Both the position numbers and the translations under genes were made by a program. A stretch of 64,000 nucleotides of DNA from Synechococcus sp. RSCCF101 (GTDB lineage: Bacteria; Cyanobacteriota; Cyanobacteriia; PCC-6307; Cyanobiaceae): positions 558,001 to 622,000 of the forward strand of contig NZ_CP035632.1 in the NCBI RefSeq assembly GCF_008807075.1. The letters are read 5' to 3'. Positions 8,763 to 41,763 of the stretch are shown here, piece after piece. Below the pieces are notes generated by a model, which ran no database searches, was not told the origin of the DNA, and was given only the letters and a program-made list of their open reading frames with translations. Positions within the stretch are counted from its first letter, which is position 1. Each line of letters starts with the position of its first letter.

Positions 8763-9104
8763 TCAGCGGGCCTCGAAGACCACGAAGGCTGCACCCTGGC
8801 TCTGGGTGTAGGCGTCGTAGCCGACCATGCGCACGTGGTGATCGGGATAAGCGCGGTGGCAGGCCTCGAGTTCACTGACGATCACGCCGAGGTCCTTCTC
8901 ACCGAAGAAGGGCAGTTTCCAGTACGACCAGTAGGTCGCCATGGAACGACTGGGGTGGATGTGCTCCACGAGGGGCGTCCAGCCCTGGGCGATGATGTAG
9001 GCGATCTGGTCGTAGATCTCGTCCTGGGTCATCGGCGGCAGAAAGCCGAAGGTTTCCAGGGTGGCGACTGTCTGATAGTCACCCACGGTGCTCTGGAACG
9101 GCAT
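8763..9104 (-). CDS. cbbS: Ribulose bisphosphate carboxylase small subunit (form IA)
   Basis: A 113-residue small subunit that caps the L8S8 Rubisco. Motifs: ETFGFLPPMTQDEIYDQI near the start, YWSYWKLPFFGE in the centre, and a family-typical C-terminal strand ending AAFVVFEAR. Its length is that of short form IA subunits of alpha-cyanobacteria and proteobacteria, not of form IB. It lies 90 bases after cbbL, separated by a perfect hairpin, and 107 bases before csoS2. Confidence 0.97.
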   Translation of the reverse strand: MPFQSTVGDYQTVATLETFGFLPPMTQDEIYDQIAYIIAQGWTPLVEHIHPSRSMATYWSYWKLPFFGEKDLGVIVSELEACHRAYPDHHVRMVGYDAYTQSQGAAFVVFEAR

Positions 9105-9148
9105 GGGAGTCCTTGCTGAGGGTGGTGGTGTTGAGGCGAAGTGACCGC

Positions 9149-9179
9149 GACGGCGGATTCACAATCGGAATCCGCCGTC
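9149..9179 (-). promoter_or_regulatory. Perfect 12-bp hairpin between cbbL and cbbS
   Basis: Arms at 9149-9160 (gacggcggattc) and 9168-9179 (gaatccgccgtc) are exact reverse complements around a 7-base loop. The hairpin starts 15 bases past the cbbL stop and has no following U-run on the minus strand, so it looks more like an mRNA-stabilising, processing or partial-termination element than a full terminator. Confidence 0.75.
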
Positions 9180-9194
9180 ATCGGCCGGGTCAGG

Positions 9195-24599: not shown

Positions 24600-25283
24600 G
24601 TGCCGGATGCCCTGCAGCTGAAGATCTGCGGCCTGACCCAGCCGGAGCAGGCCGCCGCGGTGGCGGCCATGGGGGTGGAGGCCATCGGCGTGATCGGCGT
24701 GGCGGGATCCCCCCGCTGCCTTGATTCCGAGCAGCGCGATCGGGTCTTCGATGCCGTCGCCAGCGTGGCTCCGGACTGCGAGCGGGTGCTCGTGCTGGCC
24801 GATCCGAGCGATGCCGAGCTGGAGAGTGTGGCTTCCGCTGGCCGTACCCGGGCCACAGTGCTGCAGCTGCATGGCGGGGAGACACCGGAACGCTGTGCCG
24901 CGATCAGCCGGCTGCTGCCCGACCTGACGCTCTGGAAGGCCTGGCGGCTCAGGGCACCGGAGGAGATTGAACTGCTGCTGACCTACCGCCACAACGTGCA
25001 GGCCCTGCTTCTGGATGCCTGGCACCCGCAGCAGCTGGGAGGAACCGGAACCCGGCTGCCGCTGGACTGGCTGGCGGATGCCGGGAGTCTGGGGCGCTGG
25101 TGGCTCGCCGGCGGCGTGTGCGAAGAAGCGCTCCCGCAGATGCTGAGCAGGGTCCGCCCGAGCGGTCTGGATGCCTCCAGTCGCCTCGAGCGGAGCCCGG
25201 GGATCAAGGATCTGGATCGCGTTCGGCGGTTGGTCGATGCCGTGCAAGCCTTCGACCGACCGCCCGGAGCGGGATCCGGTTGA
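24600..25283 (+). CDS. trpF: Phosphoribosylanthranilate isomerase
   Basis: Tryptophan pathway isomerase (PRA to CdRP), TIM barrel, 227 residues. The catalytic cysteine is in LKICGLTQPEQA near the start; VLQLHGGE and LLLDAWHPQQLGGTG are standard TrpF motifs, and GLDASSRLERSPGIKD is the phosphate-binding end. Start is GTG 24600. Neighbours are unrelated to tryptophan synthesis, as is normal in cyanobacteria. It converges with folE; the two stops form the arms of a hairpin. Confidence 0.92.
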   Translation: MPDALQLKICGLTQPEQAAAVAAMGVEAIGVIGVAGSPRCLDSEQRDRVFDAVASVAPDCERVLVLADPSDAELESVASAGRTRATVLQLHGGETPERCAAISRLLPDLTLWKAWRLRAPEEIELLLTYRHNVQALLLDAWHPQQLGGTGTRLPLDWLADAGSLGRWWLAGGVCEEALPQMLSRVRPSGLDASSRLERSPGIKDLDRVRRLVDAVQAFDRPPGAGSG

Positions 25284-25295
25284 GGCCGGGCCTCA
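25281..25295. terminator. Stop-codon hairpin between trpF and folE
   Basis: TGAGGC (25281-25286), CGG, GCCTCA (25290-25295): perfect arms that begin and end with the trpF and folE stop codons. A second palindrome CAGGAGG-G-CCTCCTG follows at 25302-25316 inside the folE end. Confidence 0.45.
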
Positions 25296-26036
25296 GGTGC
25301 TCAGGAGGGCCTCCTGCTGACGAACGAGTTCAAAGAACTCCTGCTTGAGGCTTGGATCGTGACGGAAATCACCCCGCACCACGGAGTTGACCATGCTGGT
25401 CTGGGGCTCCTTCACACCGCGCCACTTCATGCAGTAGTGCTGGGCCTTGACGATGATGCCGAGACCCTGCGGCTCGCAGAGTTTCTCGATCTCATCGGCG
25501 AGGATCATCACCGCTTCCTCCTGGATGTGGGGGCGGGAAAAGACCCAGTCGGCCACACGGGCGAACTTGGAGAGGCCGATCACGCGCTCACCGGGCTTGA
25601 TGCCGATCCAGCAGTTGCCCAGGATCGGCACCAGGTGATGGGAGCAGGCGGAGCGGACGGTGATCGGACCGACCGTGTAGATCTCGTCCAGCTTCTTGAC
25701 GTTGGGGAAACTGGCCACCTTGGGCTGCTCGTGGTAGCGACCCTTGAACACTTCATGCAGGTACATGCGGGCGACACGCTCGGCGGTCTCCTCGGTGTTG
25801 TGATCGTTGTCGATATCGACGACGAGGCTGCGCAGCAGATCCCGCACCTTGCCGGTCACTTCAATCTCGAGCTGTTCGAGTTCACCCGGCTGGATGTGCT
25901 CGGAGATGTTGTCGTTGGCCAGGAACGAGACGCCGGCATCCCTGAGGCGCTCCCGCAGACGGACGCTCACGGGCTTGGGTGTCACCTCAGGGGTGATCGC
26001 GAGCCCATTGAGGGCGTTGGGCAATGTGGAGGTCAT
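25293..26036 (-). CDS. folE: GTP cyclohydrolase I
   Basis: Converts GTP to dihydroneopterin triphosphate, the first step of folate and pterin synthesis. 247 residues. Zinc and active-site motifs are intact: TVRSACSHHLVPILGNCWIG (Cys, His), GLSKFARVADWVFSRP, and KAQHYCMKWRGV with the second zinc cysteine. The N-terminal 40 residues are a variable lead. It is 8 bases downstream of the SDR gene and in line with accA, so accA-SDR-folE is probably one transcript. Confidence 0.96.
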   Translation of the reverse strand: MTSTLPNALNGLAITPEVTPKPVSVRLRERLRDAGVSFLANDNISEHIQPGELEQLEIEVTGKVRDLLRSLVVDIDNDHNTEETAERVARMYLHEVFKGRYHEQPKVASFPNVKKLDEIYTVGPITVRSACSHHLVPILGNCWIGIKPGERVIGLSKFARVADWVFSRPHIQEEAVMILADEIEKLCEPQGLGIIVKAQHYCMKWRGVKEPQTSMVNSVVRGDFRHDPSLKQEFFELVRQQEALLST

Positions 26037-26044
26037 GGGGGAGG

Positions 26045-26755
26045 TCAGAGAGCGCCCGCGGCGGGCATCAGTGTCAGGTCTTCAATCACCTGGCTGGACG
26101 GTTGCTGGGCGAGATGAAGCAGAGCGGCTGCGGCTTGGTCCACGCCCAGCATGGAGCCGCGATCGAAATCCGCCGCCACGTTATCGCTGTCCCAGAGGGG
26201 ACTGTCGACAGCGCCGAGAGTGAGCGTGCTCACCCGGATCCCGTCACCCCGGTGTTCCTCCCGCAGACAGCGGCTGAACATGTCCAGAGCGGCCTTGCTG
26301 ACGCAGTAGCCGCCCCAGCCGGGGAAGGCGGTGCGGGCGGCGTGGCTGCTCACGTTGATCACCAGACCGCCGCCGGCACGGATCATCGCCGGCAGCACCG
26401 CCTGGCAGAGCTGCATCACGCCGGTCAGGTTCACCCGGATCAGGGTGTCCCAGGTCTCCGGAGCCATGGTCAGCAGTGGCCCGGTTGCGGCAAGACCCGC
26501 GTTGTTCACGACGGCATCGGGTGTGCCGCCGCGGTCCAGCAGGGCCGTGATGGCCGGGAAGATCGCGGTCGGATCGGCCAGATCGAAGGATTCCGAGTGA
26601 ATCCGCCGGCCGGTCCCACGAAGGGACTCCGCCAGCCCGGCAAGGCGCTCGGCATTGCGGCCGGTGATCAGAAGATCCCAGCCGGCCTGCGCGAAAGCCT
26701 TGCAGGATGCCGATCCGATGCCGCTTGAGGCACCGGTGATCAGGGCAGTGGGCAC
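26045..26755 (-). CDS. Short-chain dehydrogenase/reductase
   Basis: Classical SDR of 236 residues. Cofactor motif TGASSGIGSASC at about 7-18, NNAGLAATGP, and catalytic Ser/Tyr/Lys (INVSSHAAR, then GYCVSKAALDM). Start is GTG 26755; the protein reads MPTALITGAS. Sits between accA (34 bases) and folE (8 bases). The substrate cannot be deduced; sepiapterin-like or keto-acyl reduction would both suit the neighbours, but that is speculation. Confidence 0.88.
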   Translation of the reverse strand: MPTALITGASSGIGSASCKAFAQAGWDLLITGRNAERLAGLAESLRGTGRRIHSESFDLADPTAIFPAITALLDRGGTPDAVVNNAGLAATGPLLTMAPETWDTLIRVNLTGVMQLCQAVLPAMIRAGGGLVINVSSHAARTAFPGWGGYCVSKAALDMFSRCLREEHRGDGIRVSTLTLGAVDSPLWDSDNVAADFDRGSMLGVDQAAAALLHLAQQPSSQVIEDLTLMPAAGAL

Positions 26756-26789: not shown

Positions 26790-27788
26790 TTAAACGCTCG
26801 GAATGGATTCCGGGCTGGCCAGTCCGTCGTGGCTGAACTGACCGATGCGCCGGTACTTGCCGTAGCGCTGCTCCTTGAGGGCTTCGGGGCTCAGTCCGAG
26901 GAGCTCCGTGAGGTGACGGGAGAGGGCGCTCTTCAGCGTCTCGGCGGCCTCGGTCGGGGCCCAGTGGTTGCCGCCGCAGGGCTCGTCGAGGATCTCATCG
27001 ACGATGCCGAGCCTGGTGAGGTCCTGGGCTGTGATGCGCAGGGCCTGAGCCGCTTCCGCCGACTTGGCGGCGTCCCGCCAGAGAATGGAGGCGCAGGCCT
27101 CCGGACTCGCCACGGTGTAGACGCTGTGCTCGAACATCAGCAGCCTGTCGGCCACACCGATCCCGAGGGCGCCGCCGGAGCCCCCCTCGCCGATGACCGT
27201 GGCGATGACGGGCACCGAGAGGCCGAACATCTCCCGGAGATTGGCTGCGATCGCCTCCCCCTGGCCCTCCTCCTCGGCCCGGAGTCCGGCATAGGCGCCG
27301 GGCGTGTCGATGAAGCAGAGGATCGGCAGCCGGAAGCGGTGGGCGTGGCGCATCAGCCGAAGCGCCTTGCGGTATCCGGAGGGTGAGGCCATGCCGAAGT
27401 TCCGGGCCACGTTCTCCTTGGTGTCCCGGCCTTTCTGATGCCCGAGCAGCAGCACCGCCCGTCCGTTCAGCCGGCCGATGCCGCCCACCAGGGCGCGGTC
27501 ATCGCTGCCGCGGCGATCCCCATGCAGCTCATGGAAACCATCGGTGATCAGCTGGATGTAGTCGAGCGTGCTGGGGCGCTGCGGATGGCGGGCGACCTGA
27601 ATCTTCTGGGCCGGCGTCAGGCCGCTGAAGATCTCCTCGCGCCGCCTGGCGGCCAGGCTCTCGAGTTGCAGCAACTGCTGGCTCACATCCACTTCCGAAT
27701 CCCGGGCCAGCTGCCGGATCTGCTCGATCTGCTGCTCAAGCTCCACGAGGGGCTTCTCGAACTCGAGCAGAGGGCGTCGGGCGGGCAT
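26790..27788 (-). CDS. accA: Acetyl-CoA carboxylase carboxyltransferase subunit alpha
   Basis: Alpha subunit of the carboxyltransferase that makes malonyl-CoA for fatty acids (and for the nearby polyketide synthase). 332 residues. Start [20 protein letters not shown]; core motifs [12 protein letters not shown]-like [34 protein letters not shown], and [20 protein letters not shown]. Its position 134 bases downstream of the polyketide gene pair is suggestive because Ols needs malonyl-CoA, but accA is essential and such adjacency may be chance. Confidence 0.96.
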
Positions 27789-27922: not shown

Positions 27923-28960
27923 TCAGGCAGAGACGTGGTTCGCAGGCGATGCAGTGACGCGTCTGCGGATGACCAGATCATCAGCAAGAGATGGCTCGAA
28001 GCTCTCCGTATGCGGCCGCAGTCGGATCAGATAGAACCCTGCACAGGACAAGACCGGGGTCGTGATCGCAGACAACGGAGCGGCGGAACCTGCATCGCCG
28101 GCAGTCACTGATGCATCAGCCCTGACTGGGCTGGCCATCAGCCGGCAGGAGTGGATGGGAAGGCTGGCGCGGTTGTACACAGTGACGTAGATCTCGAACG
28201 AGGCCAGCAGGGCGGAGGAGGCTTCGATCTCGAGCGAGCAGTCTGCAGGGAACCAGTCGTAGCGGAACAGGGTGCATGGATCACCGGCCGGGAGGTATTC
28301 GGACTCGATGAAGCGATCCGGCAGGATGCCGCGCAGACGCAGCATCGGATGAACGTAGAAGTGAATCAGTCGATAGAACAGTGTCGTGTGGCGAGCCAGG
28401 TCGTTGTAGACGGCATTCGTGCCATGATCCACGGCCAGTGGTGAGGCCACCGGCTCGGAATCGGCCAGCACGGCGGGCATGCGAGCCGATGGCGCGAGGT
28501 CGTAGTAGCGGATGCCGAGGATGTAGTCGCCGGCCGCAAGGTCGATGGTGCTCCACTGGTCACTCGATTCCGGGTCGAGAGACTGAAGATGAGCGACGGT
28601 TCGGAAGGATGGGAAGGCATAGACGGCGACTGTCCAGGTGTCAGCGCTGTTCCGTGCTTCGTGCGTGTCAACACTCAGCTGCCTGCGGATGCTGACGGGT
28701 CCGAGTGTGCCGATGGTGGCATGGGTGTTCCAGCGTGGACCGCGGGTCATCAGCACCGGCAGGCTCATGGCCCGCTCGAAGGTCTGTTGCGACAACAGCT
28801 GCCACGAGGTGCGCCTGAGTGGATCCCTGGAGATATGGCGTTTGTAGAGCGATGAGATGATCGACTTGCTGATGTGAAAGCTCAGCCAGGAGACGATCGC
28901 GACCGGGAGTTGCCAGAGCAGATCGAGCGAGACGGATCTGATCTGCGGGTTCAGCGCCAA
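27923..28960 (-). CDS. Unknown protein translationally coupled to the olefin synthase gene
   Basis: 345 residues, function unknown. The N-terminus is hydrophobic (LLWQLPVAIVSWLSFHI, probable membrane anchor). Next come TFERAMSLPVLMTRGPRWNTH and ATIGTLGPV, a stretch I associate with a family of cyanobacterial proteins found beside type I PKS genes (possibly DUF6208; not verified). Two beta-rich halves follow, each with a pattern like GDYILGIRYYDL or SFEIYVTVYNRASLP. Start: TTG 28960, supported by GAGGAA 8 bases upstream within the end of ols; the genes overlap by 10 bases. The overlap makes a role in the same pathway likely, perhaps alkene handling or membrane anchoring. Confidence 0.72.
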   Translation of the reverse strand: MALNPQIRSVSLDLLWQLPVAIVSWLSFHISKSIISSLYKRHISRDPLRRTSWQLLSQQTFERAMSLPVLMTRGPRWNTHATIGTLGPVSIRRQLSVDTHEARNSADTWTVAVYAFPSFRTVAHLQSLDPESSDQWSTIDLAAGDYILGIRYYDLAPSARMPAVLADSEPVASPLAVDHGTNAVYNDLARHTTLFYRLIHFYVHPMLRLRGILPDRFIESEYLPAGDPCTLFRYDWFPADCSLEIEASSALLASFEIYVTVYNRASLPIHSCRLMASPVRADASVTAGDAGSAAPLSAITTPVLSCAGFYLIRLRPHTESFEPSLADDLVIRRRVTASPANHVSA

Positions 28961-31900
28961 GGTTGGGGTTCCTCAATCCGGGGGGGTGCATTGGCGTCCG
29001 AGCGCAGCGAGCTGAGGATGCAGTCGCTCAGGGCAGCCGGCGCGTCGATCATCAGGGTGTGGCCGCCCTTGAGGGTCACATGCTCGGCATGGCGCAGGGC
29101 CTGTTGTTCGGCCTGCAGGTCTTCGGGCCGGTTGAAGCTGCTGTCGGACCCGTGGATGGCGAGGGTGCTGGCCTCCAACCCGGAGAGAAGATCCAGATAA
29201 GCCTCGCGCTGCAGGGGGCCTCCCTGAAGGTTGAGCGTGGTGCGGAGCCTCAGCACCGGATCCCAGCTCCAGATGCAGCCGCCCTGGCAGCTGACCGTGC
29301 CGCGGGCGACGAGTCTTTCGGCGTGCTGGGGAGCGAGGGAGGGGAGAGCCGTTCGCAGCCGTTGCCTGGCGTGGTCCTGATCCGGCATCACCTCATGCTG
29401 AGGCGGTGTGAGGGAGCTGCTGACCAGGCTGCTCACGCTCTGGACCACATCGCGCTCCGTTGGCTCTCCGGGCAGTACCGGCTCCACCAGGATCAGGCGA
29501 CGGACCACGGAGGAGCGGAGCCGCGTCAGGGTGCTGGCCACGACCGATCCGAGCGAGTGACCGATCACGGTGAGGTCGCGGAGGGCGAGGGTGTCGACAA
29601 CACCCACGGCATCGCGGATGAAGTCGGTCAGCTGGTAAGTGCCGCCGGGTCCGGCGTGGTCGGACCGCCCGTGGCCCCTCAGATCGACAGCGATCACGTG
29701 GAACCCTGCCTCCGCCAGAGGCCCCGCAATCGGTTCCCACACCAGCGCCTGATCGAGAATGCCGTGGATGCAGAGAACGGGGGGGCCATCCTCAGGCCCC
29801 CATTCGCAGACTCCCAGACGGATCCCCTGGACATCGAGGGTCGACTCCCTGGCCGGTTCCGATGCGGCAGGCTCCTGCCGGCTAGTGGGGTCGTTGGGGA
29901 GGCTGTAGCCGAGGCTGATGGCGAGTTCGGCCGTTGCGGACTCCAGAGGCCGGGGCAGCCGGACCTGCTTCCACCTGTCGGCGAGAGCCGGGTCGATCGA
30001 CTGACGCTTCCTGAAATTGGGATCGCCGATGGACATCGACGTGCCGTGCACACCATCGGTCAGGCGACCGGAGTCATAGGGGGAGAGCAGGCTCGCCTCG
30101 AAGGGAAAACCCAGGAAGGAACAGATGGAACGCAGCTCGGAGCCGGGGTCACGCACCAGGGTTTCGTACCGGACCCGATGCACGCGTTCCGGAGTGCCTG
30201 GCGCGGACTGCAGGCTGGTGACGTTGAGGTTGGATCGTGTCCAGACCGATTCGGCCAGGGCGTAGGGATCGACATCACCCACCGCGAACAGATGCTGCAT
30301 GCGCAGATCCACGAAGGACTGGATCACGGCGTAGGGATGGCGCACCAGGTGGATGACGTGGGCGTCAGTGAAAAGCTCACCGACCCGGCTGAGGGTGCTT
30401 CGCTCGAGCGCATAGGTCGGTGATTTGTCGACCAGGGTGCGGGTCCCGAGGGAGGACTGAAGCCGGGCGTACACCTGTTCAATCGGCATGTCCTGCTCTT
30501 CCCAGGACGCCACGAGGCGCGTCGTGTCCTCCGCACTGAGACCCTCCAGGTCCATCAGGGCCCTGACCAGGCCTTCACCCATGCCGGTCTGGCTGAGCTT
30601 GCGTGCCCGTTCGCCCATGGTGGCGAATGGGAGCAGATGCAGTTCAGGTGGTGAGTAGAGCGACGAATGCCCGGCCAGCATCACCCGCAGCAACGTGGAT
30701 CCCGCCCTCGGGGAGGAGAGGATGAAGATGATCGGCGCCAGCGTTGGTGATGGTGCCGCACTCCGTGCCGCTCTCCGTGAGGTGCGTGTGTCCCCCAGGG
30801 AGAGCGGGGGCAGGAGCGATGCGGTCCCGCCGGTCGACGTGGACAACGCGATTGCACCGGCCGCCGCCGCTGGGCTGGTGCCGTGCAGGCGATCCAGCTC
30901 CCTGGCGAGGTGAGTGGAGAGTGAGTCGAGATCCGGGTGTTCATAGAACTCGCGCGGATAGATCATCAGATCCAGATCGCGCTGAAGTTGCGAAATGATG
31001 TCCATGACCATCAACGAGTCCGCTCCGATGCTCTCCAGGCTCTCGTGATCGCCCACCTGCTCCGGCGGGATGGTGAGGCCCGCAGCGATGACACCTCTGA
31101 GGTAGACCCTGATCGCATCAGGACGGTCCTGCGGCTCCAGCTGCAGCAGCTGGTCCCTGGGTGAGGTGCTGTCACGACCCGGGGTGCCGGATGCGGTGGC
31201 CGGAGCCGGGGCATCGCTGAGCTGTGCCGCGCCTTGCCTGGAGCGTGCGGGGCCCACTGCAGGATCCGAGAGCAGGGCCTCCTGGGCGGTGCGTTGGACC
31301 ACGCGCCGGAGGGTCTCCATCTCAATGGCGCAGACCGCGAGATGCCAGCCGTCGGACGCTTCCCGGTGGAACAGATGGCTGAGCACCTCCCGGTACCGCT
31401 GAGCCGGAAGTGCCCGGATTCCACGCTGCTCCGGCAGCCGGGCAGAGGCATGACGCGAGGGATCCGCGAAGCCGCCGCCTTGCCATGGTCCCCAGCTCAG
31501 GCTCACGGCGGGCAGCCCCTGGCTGTGGCGGTACTCAGCCAGCGCATCGAGAGCCGCATTGGCAGCGGAATAGGCCACCTGGCCGGGCGATCCGATCACG
31601 CTGGTGATCGAGGAGAAGAGAAGGAACTGATCGACCGGGTGGTCCAGGCTCAGCTCATGCAACCGCCAGGCGCCGATGGCCTTCGGCCGGATGACGGAGG
31701 TCCAGCTGTCTTCCGTCAGGTCGGCAATGAGGCTGTCTTCGAGCACACCGGCGGCGTGAACAATGCCCCTGAGGGGCAGGCCGGATTCGGCGAGAACCGA
31801 CTCAACGGCGCTCGAGGTTTCACGCTCGGCGATGTCACCCCTGACCAGATTGATCTGGATGCCCTGGTCCCGCCAGGCGCTCAGCCTCCGCGCCACGGCC

Positions 31901-34900
31901 TCTCCGGGGTCTCCGCGGCCGATCAGGATCAGGGCCCGCACGCCCTCGTCGATGAGCCAGGCGGCGGTCTCCAGGCCAAGGTGGCCCAGACCGCCTGAGA
32001 TCAGGACATGACCGTCCAGCCTGGGCTGGCTCTCCATCCGGGACCGGGAGGAGGGGGTTGAGGGCCCCTGGGCGTGGGCTGCCGCTGCCGTGAGCCTGGG
32101 CACCAGGCGCCGGCCATCCGTGTGGCGGATGTGCACCTCGGAGGCCCCGCGCGTGCCTGCGTGCTGCAACTCCCGCTGCAGGAGCTGGTGGCTCTCGGGT
32201 GAGGCGAGGTCCGGGAGGGTGATGCACCCACCCCACAGACGCGGCTGCTCCAGCGCCAGCGTTCGCCAGGCCCCCGAGAGCAGGGCGTCCTGAAAGCGGG
32301 GGGAACGGCCGGCGGCCCGCACGGCCGCTGTGTTGCTGATGAGCCAGAGCCTCGGGGGAGGCTGCATCTCGCGCTGTTGCAGGACAGCCCGAGCCATCTG
32401 CATGACGCGGAAGGCCTCATGGCCTGAGGATGGGATGTGCTCGTCCGCAGCCGGTGCGGGGGCCTGAAGCAGCCCGAGAACGGGCCCGCTGCGTCCGGTC
32501 TCGCCCAGCAGGCGTTCCCAGTCGCGCACCTCTCCGGTGTTGAGACGCCAGTGCTGCCGGGAGACGCGCTCGCAGGTGGGAGCATGAACCAGGCGAATGC
32601 AGCTCTGTCCATCCGGAAGGGTGGAGACAAACGCCTCGTGCACTGCTTCATCGGCGAGCAGCAGCCATGTCCCCGGCGGGTTGGGTTCCGCGGAATCCAA
32701 GCCGGGGTTCAGGGGGGCAGCCTGCCAATCCACCCGGTAGAGAAGGTCGGCGACCGCATCAGCGGCGTCCGACACCTGCTGGGCTGGCGCGGCGATCCAG
32801 TGATGCGTCTTCCGCCATGGATAGGTGGGGAGGGCCACCCGTTCCGGAGGCGCCGATCCGTAGAGCTGCGGCCAGTCCACATCGACGCCGAGCCTGTACA
32901 GCGCGGCCAGGCTCTCGAACATCTGGGCCATGCCCGGGGTGCCCGGCCTCGAGCTGGCCAACCAGGTGATGTCGTCCCTGCCCAGACTGCTCTGGCCCAG
33001 CTTGATCAGCGTGGCTCTCGGGCCGATCTCGAGATAGGCGGACACACCGCGCTGATTCAGCGTGCTGACGCCGGCGGAGAATCTGACGGGCTCCAGGATG
33101 TGGCGGCACCAGTGCTCGGGAGTGGCGATCTCCGCTCCGATCCGCTCGCCGCTCACCGAAGAAACGATCGGCAGCTGGGGATGGCTGAAGCGGACGCGTT
33201 CCGCGACGGCGCGGAAGCGATCGACCATCGGCTGCATCAGGGGGGAATGGAACCCATGGGAGACATTGAGTTGCCGCGTCTCAAGCCCCGCCTCGCCAGC
33301 GGCACGCTGGAACCGCTCGATCTCGGCGGTGGTCCCGGACAGGACCGTGTTCTGCGGGCCGTTCTCCACCGCTACGGCGAGGTTGGCCCCGCAGCGGGTC
33401 AGTACTGACTCCAGTCGCTCTCTGGTGTCCAGCACGGCCAGCATCGAGCCGCTGGACGGCAGACCAGCCATCAGTCGTGCGCGGGAGGCGACGAGCCTGA
33501 TGCCGTCCTTGAGGCTGAACACGCCCGCGATGCAGGCTGCGGCGTACTCACCGACGCTGTGGCCGAGCAGGCAGTCGGGCTGAAGGCCCCAGTGCTGCCA
33601 GAGCCGTGCCAGTGCGACCTCGTAGGCGAACAGCGCCGGCTGGGTCAGCCAGGGGCTGTCGATGCCGGCCCCCTCGGGATCGCCGATCACCGTCGCGAGC
33701 ACGGCCGGTGCGAGGGTCGCTGCACCGGGTTCCGAGCCCGGCCCGGTCAACGCTGCCAGCTCCGCTTCCAGCTCGGCCAGAGCGGCGTCGCACGCGTCGA
33801 TCACCTCCTGGAACACGGGCTGGCAGCGCAGGAGCTCATGGCCCATGCCGGGGAACTGGGAGCCCTGGCCGGAAAAGAGAAACGCCAGTTCGATGCCTGA
33901 TCCTGCGGGCACGGAAGCCGGCTCGGATCGCTCCAGGGCCGTGATCAGGCCATCCAGGCCTGAGCCGCTGGCGGCGAGCCGGAGGCTGTGGTCCTGCCGC
34001 GTCGTGTTGGCGGAATAACAGATGGAAGCAACCTCGTGGTCGGGCGTGGCCTTGCCGCGGGCCGCCTCGAGTTGCTGAATCAGCCTCTGCTTCAGGGATT
34101 CCAGCGAGCCATGGCTCCGGGCCGAGAGCTTGAGGATGTGCTGTGGGAGGGACTGCCCGTCATCAGCGCGATCCGTGGCAGCGACGGGTGGTTCCGGAGC
34201 CGGCTCCGGTGCCGTGACGATGACGTGGGCGTTGGTTCCGCCGAAGCCGAAGGAACTGATGCCCGCGTGCCGGGAGGTCCCGGGCCAGGGCGTCAGCTCC
34301 GTTGGAATCGTGAAGACTCCGATCGCAGGCTGAATCAATGGATTCAGCTGCCGGAGGTTGATCTGAGGTGGAATCGCCTGATGCTGCATGGCCAGCAACA
34401 CCTTGATCAGGCCGGCGATGCCCGCTGCCGCCTCCAGATGTCCGAGGTTGGCCTTGACTGAACCCAGCCGGATCGGGGCGCTCTCCTCAGGCCTGGCCTG
34501 AAACACAGCGCCGAGGGCATTCACCTCGATCGGATCGCCCAGGCTCGTGCCCGTGCCGTGGGCTTCCAGGTAGCTGATCTCACTGGGATCCAGGCCCGCT
34601 CGTGCCAGGGCCGTTCGGACCACAGCCTGCTGGGCCAGCCCGTTCGGCGCCGTCAGCCCATTGCTGCGGCCATCCTGATTGATGGCGGTTCCGCTGATCA
34701 CACCGAGGATGGTGTTGTTGTCCCGCAACGCCTGATCAAGCGGTCTGAGGATGAGGACTCCGGCCCCTTCGCCTCTCACATATCCGTCGGCGTCGGCATC
34801 AAAAACTTTGCATGTCCCGTCACCAGCCAGCATGCCGGCCTGGCGGAATGTGTCCGTCAGAACGGGGGACAGCAGCAGGTTGACGCCGGCGGCGATGGCC

Positions 34901-37680
34901 GCGTCACTCTCACCCGACTGAATCGATTGCACGGCCAGATGTACCGCAACCAGAGACGATGAGCAGGCCGTGTCGACGGCCATCGACGGCCCGCGGAGGT
35001 CGTAGAAGTAGGAGAGGCGGTTGGCACTGACGCTGTGGGCATTGCCTGTGCCCCAGTAGACGCCGGGCGATGAGGGCTCGGCGTTGATGTGGGCGTAATC
35101 GTTGCTGCTCACACCTGTGAACACCCCTGTGGTGCTGCCGGCCCAATCCCTGGGCTGGATGCCGGCCTGTTCGAACGCTTCCCAGCTCAGCTCCATCAGG
35201 AGCCTCTGCTGGGGATCCATCTGCTCGGCCTCCCTCGGGTTGAGGCCGAAGAACTCGGCATCGAAGGCTTGAACATCACTCAGCAGGCCGGCTGCCTCAG
35301 CCGGAGCCCGGCCGAATCCCCGGTCGTGATTCTCTCGGCGTGACAGATCGCGTTCGATCGCCTCGTCTCCGTTGCAGAGCAGTCGCCAGAAAGCCTCCGG
35401 ACCGGCCGCGCCGGGGAAGCGGCAGCTCATCCCGACCACGGCAACGGCACAGCGATCGGTCGAGCGTCCCGCCTCGTCAACTGCCGTGCTCCGCGGAGCC
35501 TCACGGTGCCCGCCTTCGACTGCGGAGTCGTCCGGTTCGATCAGCCCACTGAGGTGGGAGGCGATCGATTCGATGGTGGGATAGTCGTACGCCAGGGTGG
35601 GCGGGATAGCCAGGTGAGGCAGAGCCGGAAAGGTGTCCGCGATCCAGTCCTCCAGAGCCGCCGTCAGCTGAACGGCCGCGACGGACTCAAGGCCGAACTG
35701 CGACAGGGGTCTATCGGCGTCGATCTGCTGCGCTGGCAACCCCACCTGTGCACTCACGCTGTCACGCAGCCAGAGCATCACTCTCAGCTTGAAGTCGGAC
35801 TGCTGTCTGCTCCGGCCTCCATGACCGGGGGATCCCAGGGAAGCCCCATGATCTGAATCAACCGGATTCCGTGAGGAGCGATGCGACTCCCGATGGTCCG
35901 ACGACCTCAACAGCGAGAGCGTGTTGAATTCAGTTCTGGGCAGCGGACGCTGCCAAGAACCGACGGAAGCGAGACCGTTGCTGAGATAAGCGTTCCTGCA
36001 CGCGTGCCTCTGAATCTTCCCGCTGGATGTCTTGGGAATCGACGCCGGTTTCAGGAGCAGAATTTCCCAGGGCTGCAGCTCATGGGCTTCAGATACAGCA
36101 CTGGCAACAGCGTCCGTGATGGCTTTCACATCAAGACGTCGAAAAGCAGAACGCTCAATTTCCTGGACGATGATCAGCTTTTCTTCGCCGTCAATATCGG
36201 TCGAAAATGCAGCGCCACAGCCGGCTCGGAGGGCTGGGTGAGCGTCCTGAACCGTGACCTCAATGTCCTGCGGGTAAAGATTCCTACCTCTGATGATGAT
36301 GACATCCTTGCTTCGTCCCGTGATGAAGAGCTGCTCATCGCCGTTCTTGTCTTGCCAGAGGAATCCGAGATCGCCTGTGCGGAGAAAGATGCCGGTTTCG
36401 CCGGGAAGTTCTCTGCCGAACGTGGCGGAGCTGAGATCGTCCTGGCCCCAGTAGCCCTTCGCCACACTGGGGCTGGAGACCCACACCTCTCCGATGAGGC
36501 CCGGGCTGAGGACCTGTTGCGTGTCCTGAGAAACGACTCGAAAGCGGACGTCGCTGATGGCAGCTCCACACCCCGCCAGCGCGCGGCCATCTGCAGGGGC
36601 GCCTTGCTGGGTTTCTACGGCCTGATTGGTCGCCAACGCCTCAGCATCAAACTGCTTGACCAGCGGCGGCTGATTGCGGCCAATGCCACTGACAAGCAGT
36701 GTTGACTCAGCCAAACCGTAGCAAGGAAGAAAAGCCTGTCGCTTGAAGCCGTAGGGCTCGAACAGCGTGGTGAAACGGTCAATTGTTTCAGGTCGGACTG
36801 GCTCTGCCCCTGAGAAAGCAAGATCCCAACAACTCAGGTCAATGTTGTCTTCAAAAGACTTGCTTATCCTGTTGGCGCAGAGGTCGTAGGCAAAATTCGG
36901 TGCTCCACTCGTCGTCGCCCGGTACTTGGAGATGACCTTGAGCCAACGCAGGGGGCGTTGCAGAAAGGTGGCCGGGGCCATCAGCACCATCGTGCAGCCC
37001 ACATACAGCGGCTGGAGGATACCGCCGACCAGTCCCATGTCGTGGAAGAGTGGCAACCACGACACCATGACGGAGTCTTCGGTGTCACGAAAGCATCGGT
37101 TGATCAGCCCCGAGTTGTGAACCAGATTGCTGTGGCTCACCATCACTCCCTTCGGATTGCCGGTGGATCCCGAGGTGTACTGCAGGAAGGCCAGTTCGTC
37201 TCCACTGAGATCGGGTGGCCGCCATGCCGTTGCCTCAGCGTCGTCGATCCGGTCGGAACTGATCAGATGGCCTGTGAGGCTGTCGCCGAGACCACTCAGT
37301 CGTTCGGCGATGGTCTCGGCAGAACCTGAGGCCGTGAGAGCCACTTTGGCTTTGCAGTCCTTGAGAATCGCACCGAGCCGATGCAGCAGCTGCTTCGATC
37401 CGGGTGGGTAGGCCGGCACAGCCGTGACGCCGGCATAGAGGCAGCCGAAAAAGCTGCTGATGAAGTCCAGCCCCGGATTGAAGAGCAGCAGGGCCCGCTC
37501 GCCCACCATGCCCGCCTGCTGCAGACGGGCCGCAATCGCCCGTGCACGACGATCGAGCTCGCCGTAGCTGAGTTCTCCCGAACTGGTGCTCTCGTCTCTG
37601 AGAAACCTGAAGGCGATGCGTTCGGGATGAAGGCCTGCGCGGTGTTGCAGCAGCTCTACGAATGTCGAAGCGTGCGGCAT
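28951..37680 (-). CDS. ols: Olefin synthase: modular type I PKS with sulfotransferase and decarboxylating thioesterase
   Basis: A 2909-residue synthase predicted to turn fatty acids into terminal alkenes. Domains (residues from ATG 37680): fatty acyl-AMP ligase 1-575 (YTSGSTGNPKG, YGLAEST, K555 in PKTSSGKIQR); ACP 630-715 (S666); ketosynthase 745-1160 (C906, H1041, H1081); acyltransferase 1260-1600 (S1375 in GHSVGEYAA; HGFH, malonyl-type); ketoreductase 1640-2130 (GGLGHLG, S2024, Y2037); ACP 2180-2260 (S2222); PAPS sulfotransferase 2310-2590 (SSPRAGSTLLR, HLVRHPYAVIQSFVD); thioesterase 2615-2890 (S2709, E2733, H2874). This order equals Ols of Synechococcus PCC 7002: elongate, reduce, sulfate the beta-hydroxyl, then hydrolyse with decarboxylation. 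A TTG at 37689 is an alternative start. No broken domain is seen; the ligase part is GC-poor for this genome. Confidence 0.93.
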   Translation of the reverse strand: MPHASTFVELLQHRAGLHPERIAFRFLRDESTSSGELSYGELDRRARAIAARLQQAGMVGERALLLFNPGLDFISSFFGCLYAGVTAVPAYPPGSKQLLHRLGAILKDCKAKVALTASGSAETIAERLSGLGDSLTGHLISSDRIDDAEATAWRPPDLSGDELAFLQYTSGSTGNPKGVMVSHSNLVHNSGLINRCFRDTEDSVMVSWLPLFHDMGLVGGILQPLYVGCTMVLMAPATFLQRPLRWLKVISKYRATTSGAPNFAYDLCANRISKSFEDNIDLSCWDLAFSGAEPVRPETIDRFTTLFEPYGFKRQAFLPCYGLAESTLLVSGIGRNQPPLVKQFDAEALATNQAVETQQGAPADGRALAGCGAAISDVRFRVVSQDTQQVLSPGLIGEVWVSSPSVAKGYWGQDDLSSATFGRELPGETGIFLRTGDLGFLWQDKNGDEQLFITGRSKDVIIIRGRNLYPQDIEVTVQDAHPALRAGCGAAFSTDIDGEEKLIIVQEIERSAFRRLDVKAITDAVASAVSEAHELQPWEILLLKPASIPKTSSGKIQRHACRNAYLSNGLASVGSWQRPLPRTEFNTLSLLRSSDHRESHRSSRNPVDSDHGASLGSPGHGGRSRQQSDFKLRVMLWLRDSVSAQVGLPAQQIDADRPLSQFGLESVAAVQLTAALEDWIADTFPALPHLAIPPTLAYDYPTIESIASHLSGLIEPDDSAVEGGHREAPRSTAVDEAGRSTDRCAVAVVGMSCRFPGAAGPEAFWRLLCNGDEAIERDLSRRENHDRGFGRAPAEAAGLLSDVQAFDAEFFGLNPREAEQMDPQQRLLMELSWEAFEQAGIQPRDWAGSTTGVFTGVSSNDYAHINAEPSSPGVYWGTGNAHSVSANRLSYFYDLRGPSMAVDTACSSSLVAVHLAVQSIQSGESDAAIAAGVNLLLSPVLTDTFRQAGMLAGDGTCKVFDADADGYVRGEGAGVLILRPLDQALRDNNTILGVISGTAINQDGRSNGLTAPNGLAQQAVVRTALARAGLDPSEISYLEAHGTGTSLGDPIEVNALGAVFQARPEESAPIRLGSVKANLGHLEAAAGIAGLIKVLLAMQHQAIPPQINLRQLNPLIQPAIGVFTIPTELTPWPGTSRHAGISSFGFGGTNAHVIVTAPEPAPEPPVAATDRADDGQSLPQHILKLSARSHGSLESLKQRLIQQLEAARGKATPDHEVASICYSANTTRQDHSLRLAASGSGLDGLITALERSEPASVPAGSGIELAFLFSGQGSQFPGMGHELLRCQPVFQEVIDACDAALAELEAELAALTGPGSEPGAATLAPAVLATVIGDPEGAGIDSPWLTQPALFAYEVALARLWQHWGLQPDCLLGHSVGEYAAACIAGVFSLKDGIRLVASRARLMAGLPSSGSMLAVLDTRERLESVLTRCGANLAVAVENGPQNTVLSGTTAEIERFQRAAGEAGLETRQLNVSHGFHSPLMQPMVDRFRAVAERVRFSHPQLPIVSSVSGERIGAEIATPEHWCRHILEPVRFSAGVSTLNQRGVSAYLEIGPRATLIKLGQSSLGRDDITWLASSRPGTPGMAQMFESLAALYRLGVDVDWPQLYGSAPPERVALPTYPWRKTHHWIAAPAQQVSDAADAVADLLYRVDWQAAPLNPGLDSAEPNPPGTWLLLADEAVHEAFVSTLPDGQSCIRLVHAPTCERVSRQHWRLNTGEVRDWERLLGETGRSGPVLGLLQAPAPAADEHIPSSGHEAFRVMQMARAVLQQREMQPPPRLWLISNTAAVRAAGRSPRFQDALLSGAWRTLALEQPRLWGGCITLPDLASPESHQLLQRELQHAGTRGASEVHIRHTDGRRLVPRLTAAAAHAQGPSTPSSRSRMESQPRLDGHVLISGGLGHLGLETAAWLIDEGVRALILIGRGDPGEAVARRLSAWRDQGIQINLVRGDIAERETSSAVESVLAESGLPLRGIVHAAGVLEDSLIADLTEDSWTSVIRPKAIGAWRLHELSLDHPVDQFLLFSSITSVIGSPGQVAYSAANAALDALAEYRHSQGLPAVSLSWGPWQGGGFADPSRHASARLPEQRGIRALPAQRYREVLSHLFHREASDGWHLAVCAIEMETLRRVVQRTAQEALLSDPAVGPARSRQGAAQLSDAPAPATASGTPGRDSTSPRDQLLQLEPQDRPDAIRVYLRGVIAAGLTIPPEQVGDHESLESIGADSLMVMDIISQLQRDLDLMIYPREFYEHPDLDSLSTHLARELDRLHGTSPAAAAGAIALSTSTGGTASLLPPLSLGDTRTSRRAARSAAPSPTLAPIIFILSSPRAGSTLLRVMLAGHSSLYSPPELHLLPFATMGERARKLSQTGMGEGLVRALMDLEGLSAEDTTRLVASWEEQDMPIEQVYARLQSSLGTRTLVDKSPTYALERSTLSRVGELFTDAHVIHLVRHPYAVIQSFVDLRMQHLFAVGDVDPYALAESVWTRSNLNVTSLQSAPGTPERVHRVRYETLVRDPGSELRSICSFLGFPFEASLLSPYDSGRLTDGVHGTSMSIGDPNFRKRQSIDPALADRWKQVRLPRPLESATAELAISLGYSLPNDPTSRQEPAASEPARESTLDVQGIRLGVCEWGPEDGPPVLCIHGILDQALVWEPIAGPLAEAGFHVIAVDLRGHGRSDHAGPGGTYQLTDFIRDAVGVVDTLALRDLTVIGHSLGSVVASTLTRLRSSVVRRLILVEPVLPGEPTERDVVQSVSSLVSSSLTPPQHEVMPDQDHARQRLRTALPSLAPQHAERLVARGTVSCQGGCIWSWDPVLRLRTTLNLQGGPLQREAYLDLLSGLEASTLAIHGSDSSFNRPEDLQAEQQALRHAEHVTLKGGHTLMIDAPAALSDCILSSLRSDANAPPRIEEPQPWR

Positions 37681-37910
37681 CAGGGGCAATGACCGTCCTG
37701 TGACTGAACAGGACCCGAATCGGTGTGCACCTGCGTCAGCTGGCCTGCACGAATGCCCTCATCATCGACAACCCCTGCGGCATGGAGATGACCGGGCCGG
37801 CACTCTGCAACCGATGTCCCCAGCCCCTCCACTGCTTCTTTCGAGGAATAATCGCCGCTCAGCTTACCAATCAGATCCCGGCACCCTGCCGGTTCTGCCC
37901 GAACCCTCAC
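37680..37910 (-). CDS. Possible small ORF bridging creatininase and ols genes
   Basis: A 76-codon frame from GTG 37910 to TGA 37682-37680. The GTG overlaps the creatininase stop as GTGA, and its TGA overlaps the ols ATG as TGATG, an arrangement typical of coupled operon genes. The translation (MRVRAEPAGCRDLIGKLSGD at the start) matches nothing I know, and third-position GC looks lower than in neighbouring genes. It could be a real small protein, a leader ORF or chance. Confidence 0.3.
   Translation of the reverse strand: MRVRAEPAGCRDLIGKLSGDYSSKEAVEGLGTSVAECRPGHLHAAGVVDDEGIRAGQLTQVHTDSGPVQSQDGHCP
37695..37714. promoter_or_regulatory. Hairpin just upstream of ols
   Basis: GTCCTGT (37695-37701) and ACAGGAC (37708-37714) form perfect 7-base arms around a 6-base loop, 15 bases before the ols ATG. 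It would sit in the 5' leader, and no clear Shine-Dalgarno lies between it and the ATG, so it may affect initiation. Confidence 0.4.
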
Positions 37911-38776
37911 CTCGGTTGGCTGGATGGCCCGCCCGGTCTCGCCTCGGAGTCGGTAGGGAGCGGTGGCCAGTCGCTTCGCAGCAGTCCATCGAACCGGCGA
38001 TGCCAGCCATCCACCAGAGCCTCAAACAGGGAGGCTCCCAGATCAGCGCCAGCCCCCCTGCTGTCGCCGATCACACCAGAGCGGCTGAGGTCCTCGGTGA
38101 GCCAGGCCGAGGGCACGGCTCCCTCCAGCTGCCAGCCCGGTGGCGGCCCCACGGCGTGGGGGGGCTGAAGCAGCCCATCCACCGGCCGCTCCTCTCCCAC
38201 GAGGTCCGGGGCCAGATGCAGCATCAGGCTCGTCTCCGCAAGACCGGCATGCAGGCCCTGGCTGCGTTCCGGTTCCCGAATCAGCCCCGCGATCGACTCG
38301 GGACCGCTCCAGAGAAAACACGGCAGCACCCCCAGGCCGGTCGCCTTCAGGCGCAGCTGCCGGGCGGCCACCTGCAGCAGAGCGATCTGGCCGCCGTGGG
38401 CATTGAGCAGCACCAGCCGGCGGAATCCCATGGAAGCGAGCTGCCGGCCCACTTCCACCACGATCCCGATCAGCAGTTCAGCCGGCAGCGTCAGCGTGCC
38501 CGGAAAGCTCGCGTGCTCCGGCGAGAAGCCGAGCACCTGGGTCGGAAGCTGCGTCACCGGCAGGTCGGGGTCCAGCCGGCTCACAACGGCGGTGCAGACC
38601 CGCTCGGCGAAGATCGCATCGGTCGCCAGGGGGAGATGGGGGCCGTGCTGCTCCAGCGCTCCCATCGGCCAGACGGCTGTGGAACCGGCCCGGTTTGCCA
38701 GAGCCGCCAGGTCCGTCCAGGACGCGGACGCCATCGATGCCGCGCGCTCTCGCTCCGGTGGTGCGGATGGGGACAT
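37907..38776 (-). CDS. Creatininase-family amidohydrolase
   Basis: 289 residues with the creatininase/MftE fold: VWPMGALEQHGPHLPLATDA provides metal ligands (Glu, His, Asp), followed by LLNAHGGQ and AGLAETSLMLHL (His/Glu). Such enzymes hydrolyse cyclic amides; family members act in riboflavin/F420 pathways, peptide maturation and creatinine breakdown. The substrate here is unknown. ATG 38776 is chosen (TTG 38788 and an internal ATG at about 38734 are alternatives). It lies upstream of ols on the same strand and diverges from the S1 gene. Confidence 0.85.
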   Translation of the reverse strand: MSPSAPPERERAASMASASWTDLAALANRAGSTAVWPMGALEQHGPHLPLATDAIFAERVCTAVVSRLDPDLPVTQLPTQVLGFSPEHASFPGTLTLPAELLIGIVVEVGRQLASMGFRRLVLLNAHGGQIALLQVAARQLRLKATGLGVLPCFLWSGPESIAGLIREPERSQGLHAGLAETSLMLHLAPDLVGEERPVDGLLQPPHAVGPPPGWQLEGAVPSAWLTEDLSRSGVIGDSRGAGADLGASLFEALVDGWHRRFDGLLRSDWPPLPTDSEARPGGPSSQPR

Positions 38777-38830
38777 CGGAACGCTCAAGGGCTCTCTCCC
38801 TAGAGTGTGGTGCTGCGATCCTCTTCTCTG

Positions 38831-40042
38831 ATGGCCGGTTCAGGCACCCCGAGGCCTCGGGGCCCTCAGCCCACACCACCGAGCCGAAGCCGCAAGCCGC
38901 CGCTGGTGATGCACATCAGCCGCCGCGATCAGCAGGAGGAGTCACCGGCCGACCTCCAGGCCCCTGTGGAAGCCGACGCTCCGGCGATGGCCACTGCACC
39001 GGTCAGCCCGCCCGATGCTTCCCCGGCAGCCCGGGTCGACCCCGACAGCGACGGGCTCGAGGGTCTCACCATGGCGGATCTGCTGGGTCCCGATGGCCCT
39101 GCGGCCGCAGCCGGCCGGAGGCGGTCCTCACCGGCCGGCCCCCGCACCGTCGATGAGTTCGATTTCGATGAGGCCGCCTTCCTGGCCGCCCTCGATGAGA
39201 ACGAACCGGTGGGCACGACCGGGGAGGTGGTGACCGGCACGGTGATCAACCAGGACGGCGACGGCGTCTATGTCGACATCGGCGGCAAGGCGCCCGCCTT
39301 CATGCCGAAGAAGGAGTGCGGCCTCGGCGTGATGACCGATCTCCGCTCGCGCTTCCCCCAGGGGCTGCCTGTGGAGGTTCTCGTCACCCGCGAGCAGAAC
39401 GCGGACGGAATGGTCACCGTCAGCTGTCGGGCCCTGGCCCTGCGTCAGAGCTGGGAGAAGGTGCGTCGCCTGGCCGAGGCCGGCGCCGTGGTCCAGGTCA
39501 AGGTGAACGGCTTCAACCGCGGCGGCATCACCTGTGATCTGGAGGGACTGCGGGGGTTCGTGCCCCGCTCCCAGCTGCTCCGGGGCGAACAGCACGAATC
39601 CCTGGTCGGGGAAACCCTGGGCGTGACCTTTTTGGAGGTCAACCCCGAGACCCGCAAGCTGGTGCTCTCCGAGAAGAAGGCCAGCAGTGCGGCCCGGTTC
39701 AGCGAGCTGGAGGTGGGCCAGCTGGTGGAGGGGCATGTGGCCTCGGTCAAGCCCTATGGGTTCTTCATCGATCTCGGCGGTGTGAGTGGTCTGCTGCACC
39801 AGTCCTGCGTGACCGGCGGACACCTGCGCCACCTCAGGGACGCCTTCTCCCAGGGGGATCCGGTGCGGGCCCTGATCACGGAGCTGGATCCTGGCCGGGG
39901 CCGCATCGCCCTCAACACCGCTCTGCTGGAGGGTCAGCCCGGCGAACTGCTCACCGATCGGGATCGCGTGATGGCCGAGGCGGAGGACCGGGCCAAGCGC
40001 GCCCAGAGCATCCTCCGGCAGCAGGAGCAGGAGGCCGGATGA
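38831..40042 (+). CDS. rps1: Ribosomal protein S1-like RNA-binding protein (three S1 domains)
   Basis: 403 residues. After a low-complexity, Pro/Ala/Asp-rich N-terminus (1-115) come three S1 domains: about 130-200 (GEVVTGTVINQDGDGVYVDI, AFMPKKECG), 220-285 (VQVKVNGFNRGGITCDLEGL, GFVPRSQL), and 300-370 (GQLVEGHVASVKPYGFFIDL, GLLHQS). Cyanobacteria have two S1-type proteins; this three-domain form with an extended N-terminus fits the second one, involved in mRNA recruitment to the 30S subunit. The stop overlaps the next gene by 4 bases (ATGA). Confidence 0.88.
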   Translation: MAGSGTPRPRGPQPTPPSRSRKPPLVMHISRRDQQEESPADLQAPVEADAPAMATAPVSPPDASPAARVDPDSDGLEGLTMADLLGPDGPAAAAGRRRSSPAGPRTVDEFDFDEAAFLAALDENEPVGTTGEVVTGTVINQDGDGVYVDIGGKAPAFMPKKECGLGVMTDLRSRFPQGLPVEVLVTREQNADGMVTVSCRALALRQSWEKVRRLAEAGAVVQVKVNGFNRGGITCDLEGLRGFVPRSQLLRGEQHESLVGETLGVTFLEVNPETRKLVLSEKKASSAARFSELEVGQLVEGHVASVKPYGFFIDLGGVSGLLHQSCVTGGHLRHLRDAFSQGDPVRALITELDPGRGRIALNTALLEGQPGELLTDRDRVMAEAEDRAKRAQSILRQQEQEAG

Positions 40043-40932
40043 GCCCTGATGCCACCCCATCTGCCGCGCTCGTGTCCCCGGACTGGGAGCTCGACTTCTA
40101 TTCCAGGCCGGTCCAGGACTCCGAGGGGCGCAAGCGCTGGGAGCTCCTGATCTGCTCGACCCCCTCCTCTGACCAGCAATCGGGCTTTCGCCACGTCAAG
40201 CCCTGTCCTGCCGACAGCGTCAATTCGATCTGGCTGGAGGCCGCCCTGGCTGAAGCTCTCACCGCGGCCGAGGCGGCCGGCTTCGGCCGGCCAAGGCGCA
40301 TCCGCAGCTGGCGCGGGTCCATGCGCACCATGGTCCAGCGCTCCGCACAGGCCCTCGGTCTCGAGCTGGTCCCGAGCCGCCGCTGCTTTGCCCTGAGCGA
40401 CTGGCTGCGGCAGCGGGAGGAGGAGGTCTATCCGGGTGAGGAGGGCTACCTGGCCGGTCCCCTGGCTCCGCCGCCAGAGCCGGTGCGTCCGGCTCCTCTG
40501 CCGCTGCCGGAAGCGGCACGGGGGCAGCGCTGGCAGTGGGTGAGGCTTCCGCTCGAGCTGCTGCGTGACGCGGCGGACTGGGAGGTGGATTTCCCGGCTC
40601 TGCTGCCCGTGCCGTCGGGCCTCGAATCAGGCCTCAGCGTTCCCGGCATCCAGATCCTCGACCCGGGCCGGGCCCTGGCGATCGCCGGCTGGCTGTCCGG
40701 CCTTGAACCCCTGCGGCTGGTGATCGATGACGACCAGCTCGTGCTCGAGGCTGGCCTGGAGGACCGCTGGCGTCTCTCCGGGCTCTCGCCTGAGGAGGCC
40801 GGTGCGGCCCGGGCTGCCCTGGAGCAGTCGCGGGCCGAGGTGGCCGGGCTGCAGTTCATCGCCGTCCAGAGCCGTGCGGACTCGGAACGGATGGCGGGCT
40901 TCTGGATGCTGCAGGACCGACCCGATCTGTAG
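40039..40932 (+). CDS. Tab2/Atab2-family RNA-binding protein
   Basis: 297 residues. The opening WELDFYSRPVQDSEGRKRWE is the Tab2/Atab2 (DUF1092) signature, with FRHVKPCPADSVNSIWL-like continuation. Algal and plant homologues bind psaB mRNA and promote its translation, so a photosystem I role is likely but unproven in cyanobacteria. The overlap with the S1-like gene (4 bases) couples it to a translation factor, which fits a role in mRNA translation. No other domains are visible; residues 145-165 are a Pro-rich linker. Confidence 0.82.
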   Translation: MSPDATPSAALVSPDWELDFYSRPVQDSEGRKRWELLICSTPSSDQQSGFRHVKPCPADSVNSIWLEAALAEALTAAEAAGFGRPRRIRSWRGSMRTMVQRSAQALGLELVPSRRCFALSDWLRQREEEVYPGEEGYLAGPLAPPPEPVRPAPLPLPEAARGQRWQWVRLPLELLRDAADWEVDFPALLPVPSGLESGLSVPGIQILDPGRALAIAGWLSGLEPLRLVIDDDQLVLEAGLEDRWRLSGLSPEEAGAARAALEQSRAEVAGLQFIAVQSRADSERMAGFWMLQDRPDL

Positions 40933-40938
40933 AGGCCG

Positions 40939-41763
40939 ATGAGCAATCGGGAGCCCATCGCGCCCCAGCGGGGCCCGTTTGATCGCCCTGACAGCCGGTT
41001 CAACACCCTGGCCGGATGGACCTGGGTGAGCACCTACGGCGGCAGCTTCCTGCAGTGCGACCAGCTGGCGGCGTTCGAGCACGGTTTCTTCACCCGGCTC
41101 TGGCACGGACGCGAGCCGGATGAGCTGGCCGGGATGATCTCGGCCGGCGTCAGCGTGCACCGCGTCAGGCAGGTGCACGGTCCCCTGGTCCTCGCGGCCT
41201 CAACGGTGCGCCATCCCTGGCCCGAGGCCGATGGGCTGGTGAGTGATGGCGGAGCCCAGAGCCTCTGGGTCTGCGGTGCCGACTGCACCCCGGTTCTTCT
41301 GGCCGACCCCCGCAGTGGGCGCGTGGCCGCCTGCCATGCCGGCTGGCGTGGTGTCGCCGGCGGCATCCTGATCGAGGCCGTGGCCCGCCTCCGCGATGTC
41401 GGCTGTGATCCCTCGGATCTGCTGGTGGCCCTCGGGCCGGCCATCGACGGCCGTCGCTACCAGGTGGAGCGAACCGTGACGCTCGCCGTGGCGGCCTCTC
41501 TGAGTGATCGGCCGACGGCACAGCCAGCGGATCCCCTTCAGCGCCTCCTCGACGCCGGTGCGGTGCTGGAGGATGCCGAACCGGGACGGGACCGACTGGA
41601 CATCCGTCGGGTGGCCGCGCTTCAGTTGCTCGATTGCGGGATTCCGGAGGAGCGGATCAGCCACTGCCCGCTCTGCACGGCCCGGGAAACCGAGCTGTTT
41701 CATTCCTGGCGCCGCGACGGCGTCCGGGCCGTTCAGTGGAGCGGCATCGTCTCGCAGGCCTGA
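40939..41763 (+). CDS. pgeF: Laccase-domain (YfiH/PgeF) protein
   Basis: 274 residues of the YfiH family: copper/zinc-dependent purine nucleoside phosphorylase or peptidoglycan-editing factor. The metal site is visible as RQVHG (His), GADCTPVLLAD (Cys) and ACHAGWRGVAGG (His). The typical C-terminal ISHCPLCTARE and FHSWRRDG are also present (usual form: CT...FFSYRRD). ATG 40939 starts 6 bases after the Tab2-like stop; the same-strand run S1 - Tab2 - PgeF - photolyase has short gaps. Confidence 0.88.
   Translation: MSNREPIAPQRGPFDRPDSRFNTLAGWTWVSTYGGSFLQCDQLAAFEHGFFTRLWHGREPDELAGMISAGVSVHRVRQVHGPLVLAASTVRHPWPEADGLVSDGGAQSLWVCGADCTPVLLADPRSGRVAACHAGWRGVAGGILIEAVARLRDVGCDPSDLLVALGPAIDGRRYQVERTVTLAVAASLSDRPTAQPADPLQRLLDAGAVLEDAEPGRDRLDIRRVAALQLLDCGIPEERISHCPLCTARETELFHSWRRDGVRAVQWSGIVSQA

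Follow-up and report, generated by a model that had tools for sequence, protein, structure and literature searches.

The window analysed here (64,000 nucleotides of Synechococcus sp. RSCCF101, contig NZ_CP035632.1) very probably encodes a complete olefin synthase (Ols) whose gene, in a cassette with a gene of the DUF6208 family, replaces the alkane genes aar and ado in place, likely by recombination through the flanks, with DUF6208 as a dedicated partner of Ols. Judged by its architecture, the enzyme itself is an ordinary Ols. As far as could be found, the new elements are the alpha-cyanobacterial host, the swap in situ and the partnership with DUF6208. The first-pass annotation had noted neither the replacement of aar-ado in place, nor the DUF6208 gene overlapping the end of ols, nor the related loci of marine Synechococcus.

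The host genome (2,984,853 bp in one contig, 98% complete) is the sole genome of its genus. The first-pass annotation had recognised an alpha-cyanobacterium from the alpha-carboxysome, and rightly so: CsoS2, CsoSCA and the RuBisCO large subunit are encoded at 4767-10607 of the window, and the creatininase and S1 genes of the host form one clade with those of picocyanobacteria of the same family.

The olefin synthase gene and its predicted product

The open frame spans 28951-37689 on the (-) strand, with a TTG start at 37689 (2912 aa); the ATG at 37680, from which residues are numbered here, lies three codons in. Pfam profiles match the protein in the order AMP-binding, PP-binding, ketoacyl-synt N and C, Acyl_transf_1, KR, PP-binding, Sulfotransfer_3 and Abhydrolase. 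It carries FAAL-ACP-KS-AT-KR-ACP-ST-TE, the domain order of Ols, in one intact chain:

28951..37680 (-), ols, complete olefin synthase, with ATG at 37680 (Pfam domains and motifs)
35950..37680 (-), FAAL (fatty acyl-AMP ligase) domain, GC-poor (Pfam AMP-binding, FAAL families)
35545..35784 (-), approximate bounds, first acyl carrier protein (ACP) domain, Ser in GLESV
34060..35445 (-), ketosynthase (KS), C-H-H (DTACSS / EAHGTGT / NLGHLEAAAG)
32980..33882 (-), acyltransferase (AT), malonyl type by motif (GHSVGE, GFHS)
31480..32013 (-), ketoreductase (KR), S-Y-N (GGLGHLG)
30907..31104 (-), second ACP domain, with its serine in GADSL
29890..30735 (-), sulfotransferase (ST), SSPRAGST; closest solved relative CurM ST 4gbm, E 1.5e-96
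28990..29847 (-), predicted decarboxylating thioesterase (TE), GHSLG / LVEP / GGH; aligned to CurM TE 3qit

Motif inspection of all domains found every checked catalytic motif intact. The ST is also near 4gox, a second solved Ols-type ST, and the TE matches 3qit (E 1e-63) with S2709, E2733, H2874 and R2813 aligned to a Ser, Glu, His and Arg that we take to play the corresponding roles in the solved enzyme. Both domains are thus of the CurM decarboxylating type. In the KS-AT and ST-TE trees, which include few non-Ols PKSs and so have a thin outgroup, the window protein falls among cyanobacterial Ols. The first-pass annotation had proposed a complete Ols at 28951-37680 with its active-site residues in place and a 24-residue spacing between S2709 and E2733, to be checked with KS and TE trees. 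The spacing is exact, no checked motif is missing, and domain order, motifs, homology to the CurM ST and TE, and trees all agree on the identification.

The catalysis and the product can be predicted by homology with the established chemistry of Ols and CurM. A fatty acid would be adenylated by the FAAL and loaded onto the first ACP, a malonate unit would be added via KS-AT, and the beta-keto group would be reduced by the KR. The ST would then sulfonate the beta-hydroxyl with PAPS as donor. At the TE, decarboxylation and loss of sulfate would accompany release of the chain as a 1-alkene, which has one carbon more than the fatty acid loaded at the start. If C14 and C16 acids are used, the products would be C15-C17 1-alkenes, i.e., 1-pentadecene and 1-heptadecene. 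A PPTase gene elsewhere in the host genome, at 1.786 Mb, could arm the ACPs.

The accA-linked slot

In most cyanobacteria ado and aar cluster with accA, according to PMC4094844. We found Ado (TIGR04059) in 276 of 300 genomes of the host's family and in 196 of the 197 of high quality; the sole high-quality exception is the window genome, where a profile search did not find Aar (TIGR04058) either. The first-pass annotation had suggested looking for these two genes, and their absence from the genome is as an Ols reading predicts. Ols ST-TE was detected in the window genome only, among 400 family genomes (251 of high quality). Six other family genomes (G023, G037, G048, G061, G074, G297; loci L188, L189) match by a stand-alone sulfotransferase only, without Ols ST-TE; these proteins have ~400-470 aa and are 31-36% identical to the Ols ST, and the genomes keep ado.

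ST-TE pairs are also found in CurM of curacin biosynthesis, and the window protein might on that account be a PKS for another lipid (e.g., a sulfated or curacin-like product), the loss of aar-ado being unrelated. We regard this as very improbable, given the full order from FAAL to TE, the placement of KS-AT among Ols, and a genome in which hydrocarbon genes are otherwise absent and ols occupies the hydrocarbon locus.

The gene order trpF-folE-SDR-accA-aar-ado-creatininase-S1-pgeF was present in 20 of the 20 alpha-cyanobacterial genomes inspected, with folE not found in the stretch examined for three of these loci. The window has the identical order except that DUF6208-ols stands in place of aar-ado, with short and clean junctions (217 and 134 bp):

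24600..26755, trpF (+), folE (-) and SDR (-), native flank in standard alpha-cyanobacterial order
26790..27788 (-), accA, native gene on the downstream side of the exchanged block
27923..28960 (-), DUF6208 (PF19713, by Pfam), overlapping the ols stop by 10 bases
37907..38788 (-), gene of the creatininase family, native, on the upstream side of the exchanged block
38807..41763 (+), S1-domain protein gene, a further gene and pgeF, native flank

A search of the window for remnants of aar or ado, gaps included, gave no match above chance level (best E 0.014, near 56 kb). The ols-DUF6208 cassette has replaced aar-ado exactly in position, with creatininase on one side and accA on the other, and the native flanks are kept. 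The most likely mechanism of the exchange is recombination via the conserved genes on either side, the evidence for which comes from relatives rather than from the window strain.

Apparent exchange and decay in related loci

Family f10, in which near-identical species carry either pathway in the slot, bears signs of recombination beside it. Between genomes G385 (with ols) and G374 (with aar-ado), S1 is 98%, accA 97% and SDR 91% identical, whereas creatininase is only 78% and ADO 52% identical. The creatininase of G385 is nearer (84%) to that of G308, a genome of a different genus with an S1 identity of only 69%. Given these identities, the creatininase-ADO-ols-DUF6208 block looks exchanged as a unit. 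The ADO beside ols in f10 genomes (G308, G341, G354 and G385; loci L056, L107/L184, L109, L149, L185, L186) is divergent, about 47-53% identical to normal ADO, and retains all six iron ligands. No aar above the cut-off was found in the f10 ols genomes, three of the four being less than 90% complete. According to PMC4094844, ado and aar are retained only as a pair; the orphan ADO of f10 is an apparent exception both to this joint retention and to the mutual exclusivity of the pathways. In G308, a 268-aa ORF without Pfam match lies between ols and DUF6208 (L056, 12865-13668, (+)).

Two marine metagenome contigs, L069 (PACT01000045.1) and L084 (PAFA01000053.1), are binned as Crocinitomicaceae and Phycisphaerae, respectively, and are misbinned. 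An origin as bacteroidete or planctomycete genes, as the bin names would have it, was ruled out by their S1, creatininase and start of accA, which are alpha-cyanobacterial: S1 groups with that of L156 (support 97/98) and creatininase lies inside a clade of marine genomes (98/95). On these genes, the contigs are alpha-cyanobacterial DNA, from marine Synechococcus. Their order is S1-creatininase-ols-DUF6208-PPTase, and L084 continues into accA. Between creatininase and ols, L084 carries a decayed start of ado over 36 aa (56%, E 6e-9), and L069 one over 25 aa (68%). A scrap of aar precedes accA in L084 (NLTALGGFISIIFE, E about 3e-5) and a stop-ridden one is found in L069 (KTAQ*KVDNTMDLA, E 0.002). 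These E-values come from a small set of gap sequences, in which reversed-query controls reach only E 0.05. The simplest reading of these sequences is that ols-DUF6208 entered between ado and aar and that both then decayed.

The remnants thus suggest insertion then decay in the marine contigs, not clean exchange. The same may have happened in the window: in the alpha lineage, ols-DUF6208 may have landed next to the ado-aar pair or within it, with the old genes lost later and no allelic exchange through the flanks. The position of the scraps, with ado on one side of the cassette and aar on the other, speaks for this, as does the ADO that f10 retains next to ols, but the junctions of the window are clean and free of remnants beyond chance, and the f10 block moved as one between near-identical flanks. 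We consider insertion and decay a plausible but rather doubtful account of the window locus, and favour exchange through the flanks.

The trees of KS-AT (support 99), ST-TE (99) and DUF6208 (98/96) all place the window in one clade with the Lyngbya confervoides locus L064 and with L069/L084. Since three trees give this one clade, ols and DUF6208 have travelled together. The three trees disagree in their inner branching, and each has a long branch for the window; the KS-AT and DUF6208 trees disagree on whether L. confervoides or the marine Synechococcus contigs are the nearest kin.

Ols might also be ancestral at the slot and have been replaced by aar-ado in most alpha-cyanobacteria, with the window and L069/L084 as survivors. 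The window and L084 are indeed as far apart in Ols (KS-AT about 50%) as in creatininase (57%), and together with one other genome they make up a single clade. Moreover, ols adjoining accA is widespread: among 49 named Ols loci whose flanking sequence was long enough, sorted by hand, accA is close by in 18 (15 downstream of ols-DUF6208, three divergent), while the other 31 are not beside accA. Yet aar-ado is found almost throughout the family, and the ado and aar remnants of L069/L084 show that ols reached a locus already holding aar-ado. An ancestral Ols is therefore improbable, and we retain the replacement of aar-ado by the cassette.

Horizontal transfer is supported by the trees and the locus, not by base composition. 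The first-pass annotation had taken the GC-poor ligase part as consistent with transfer; its base counts (28 G/C of 60 at 36121-36180, 41 of 60 at 22801-22860) are exact and transfer stands, but on these other grounds. The FAAL part has 59.4% GC and 68% GC3, against 68.7% GC in the window and a GC3 of about 80-88% in the immediate neighbours. AT, KR and TE are at background GC, DUF6208 has 62% and the native folE is also low, at 61.7%. GC is weak as proof of transfer, with only FAAL, ACPs and DUF6208 low; the deficit of the FAAL part is real but mild, and supporting only. A plasmid origin was unsupported, Ols-like ST-TE being found on two cyanobacterial plasmids only, at about 42% and without link to the window.

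DUF6208, pathway exclusivity and known systems

The window DUF6208 scores 269 bits with the Pfam profile (gathering score 25). Among the same 390 genomes of the class, 35 encode a full Ols, 36 a DUF6208 and 34 both (Fisher 2e-45, a test that ignores relatedness), which makes DUF6208 a near-obligate partner of Ols. In the sole Ols genome without DUF6208 (G576), Ols lies at the edge of a contig; DUF6208 without Ols occurs in a 73%-complete genome and in G613. The latter, an aar-ado genome without Ols ST-TE match, encodes DUF6208 at C56:158519-159385 and is the one clean exception to the pairing. The pairing persists when the genes are unlinked, as in PCC 7117, where 1.1 Mb separates ols from DUF6208. 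Of the 35 Ols genomes, 31 lack Ado; the four that have it all belong to f10.

The AlphaFold model of DUF6208 (pLDDT 89.9) consists of a 34-residue N-terminal helix and beta domains. Comparison of folds did not assign a function, with only distant resemblance to the uncharacterised 6ans, 2p3y and 3u07 (TM about 0.41-0.45). The protein is probably membrane-anchored and might, as a weakly held guess, deliver either the alkene or the synthase itself to the membrane. We found no mention of DUF6208 in the literature searched; its pairing with Ols provides it with a function-linked context.

Why cyanobacteria have either Aar/Ado or Ols, never both, has been a question since 2014 (PMC3903477), and PMC3903477 and PMC6361979 state that the two were not found together. 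PCC 7002 engineered with both pathways tolerates them (PMC6361979), so that simple incompatibility is not the answer. Term searches of PMC3903477 and PMC4094844 returned no mention of the two pathways alternating in one slot. In the loci compared here, Ols and Aar/Ado behave as interchangeable alleles of a single locus linked to accA, and this shared position provides a testable explanation of their exclusivity, at least in part. We propose tentatively, as a view whose chances fall a little short of even, that allele exchange at the accA slot across lineages, picocyanobacteria included, and not biochemical incompatibility, underlies much of the mutual exclusivity, and that DUF6208 is a required component of olefin synthesis. 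The hydrocarbons of marine Synechococcus are generally taken to be Ado alkanes. The loci described here extend the predicted 1-alkene pathway to alpha-cyanobacteria, marine Synechococcus among them.

The aar-ado alkane pathway, absent from the window genome, has the same chromosomal slot as the window ols and presumably the same role (membrane hydrocarbons), but its enzymes and chemistry are unrelated. The Ols of PCC 7002 (Synechococcus/Picosynechococcus) and its kin match that of the window in domain order and in the 1-alkene chemistry predicted for it; in PCC 7117, whose genome also encodes DUF6208, ST-TE is 45% identical to the window's. That system differs by its beta-cyanobacterial host, an ols away from accA and a DUF6208 over a megabase from ols. 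The closest ST-TE relative (52-53%) is the Ols of Lyngbya confervoides BDU141951 (L064, genome G450), which has an adjoining DUF6208 and is also without ado and aar, but lies outside the alpha-cyanobacterial family and has its ols not beside accA in the stretch examined. CurM of curacin A biosynthesis (ST 4gbm, TE 3qit) shares with the window the ST and the decarboxylating TE, with Ser-Glu-His and the 24-residue S-E spacing; it is, however, the terminal module of an assembly line made up of several proteins, whereas the window Ols is a single protein that would start from a fatty acid.
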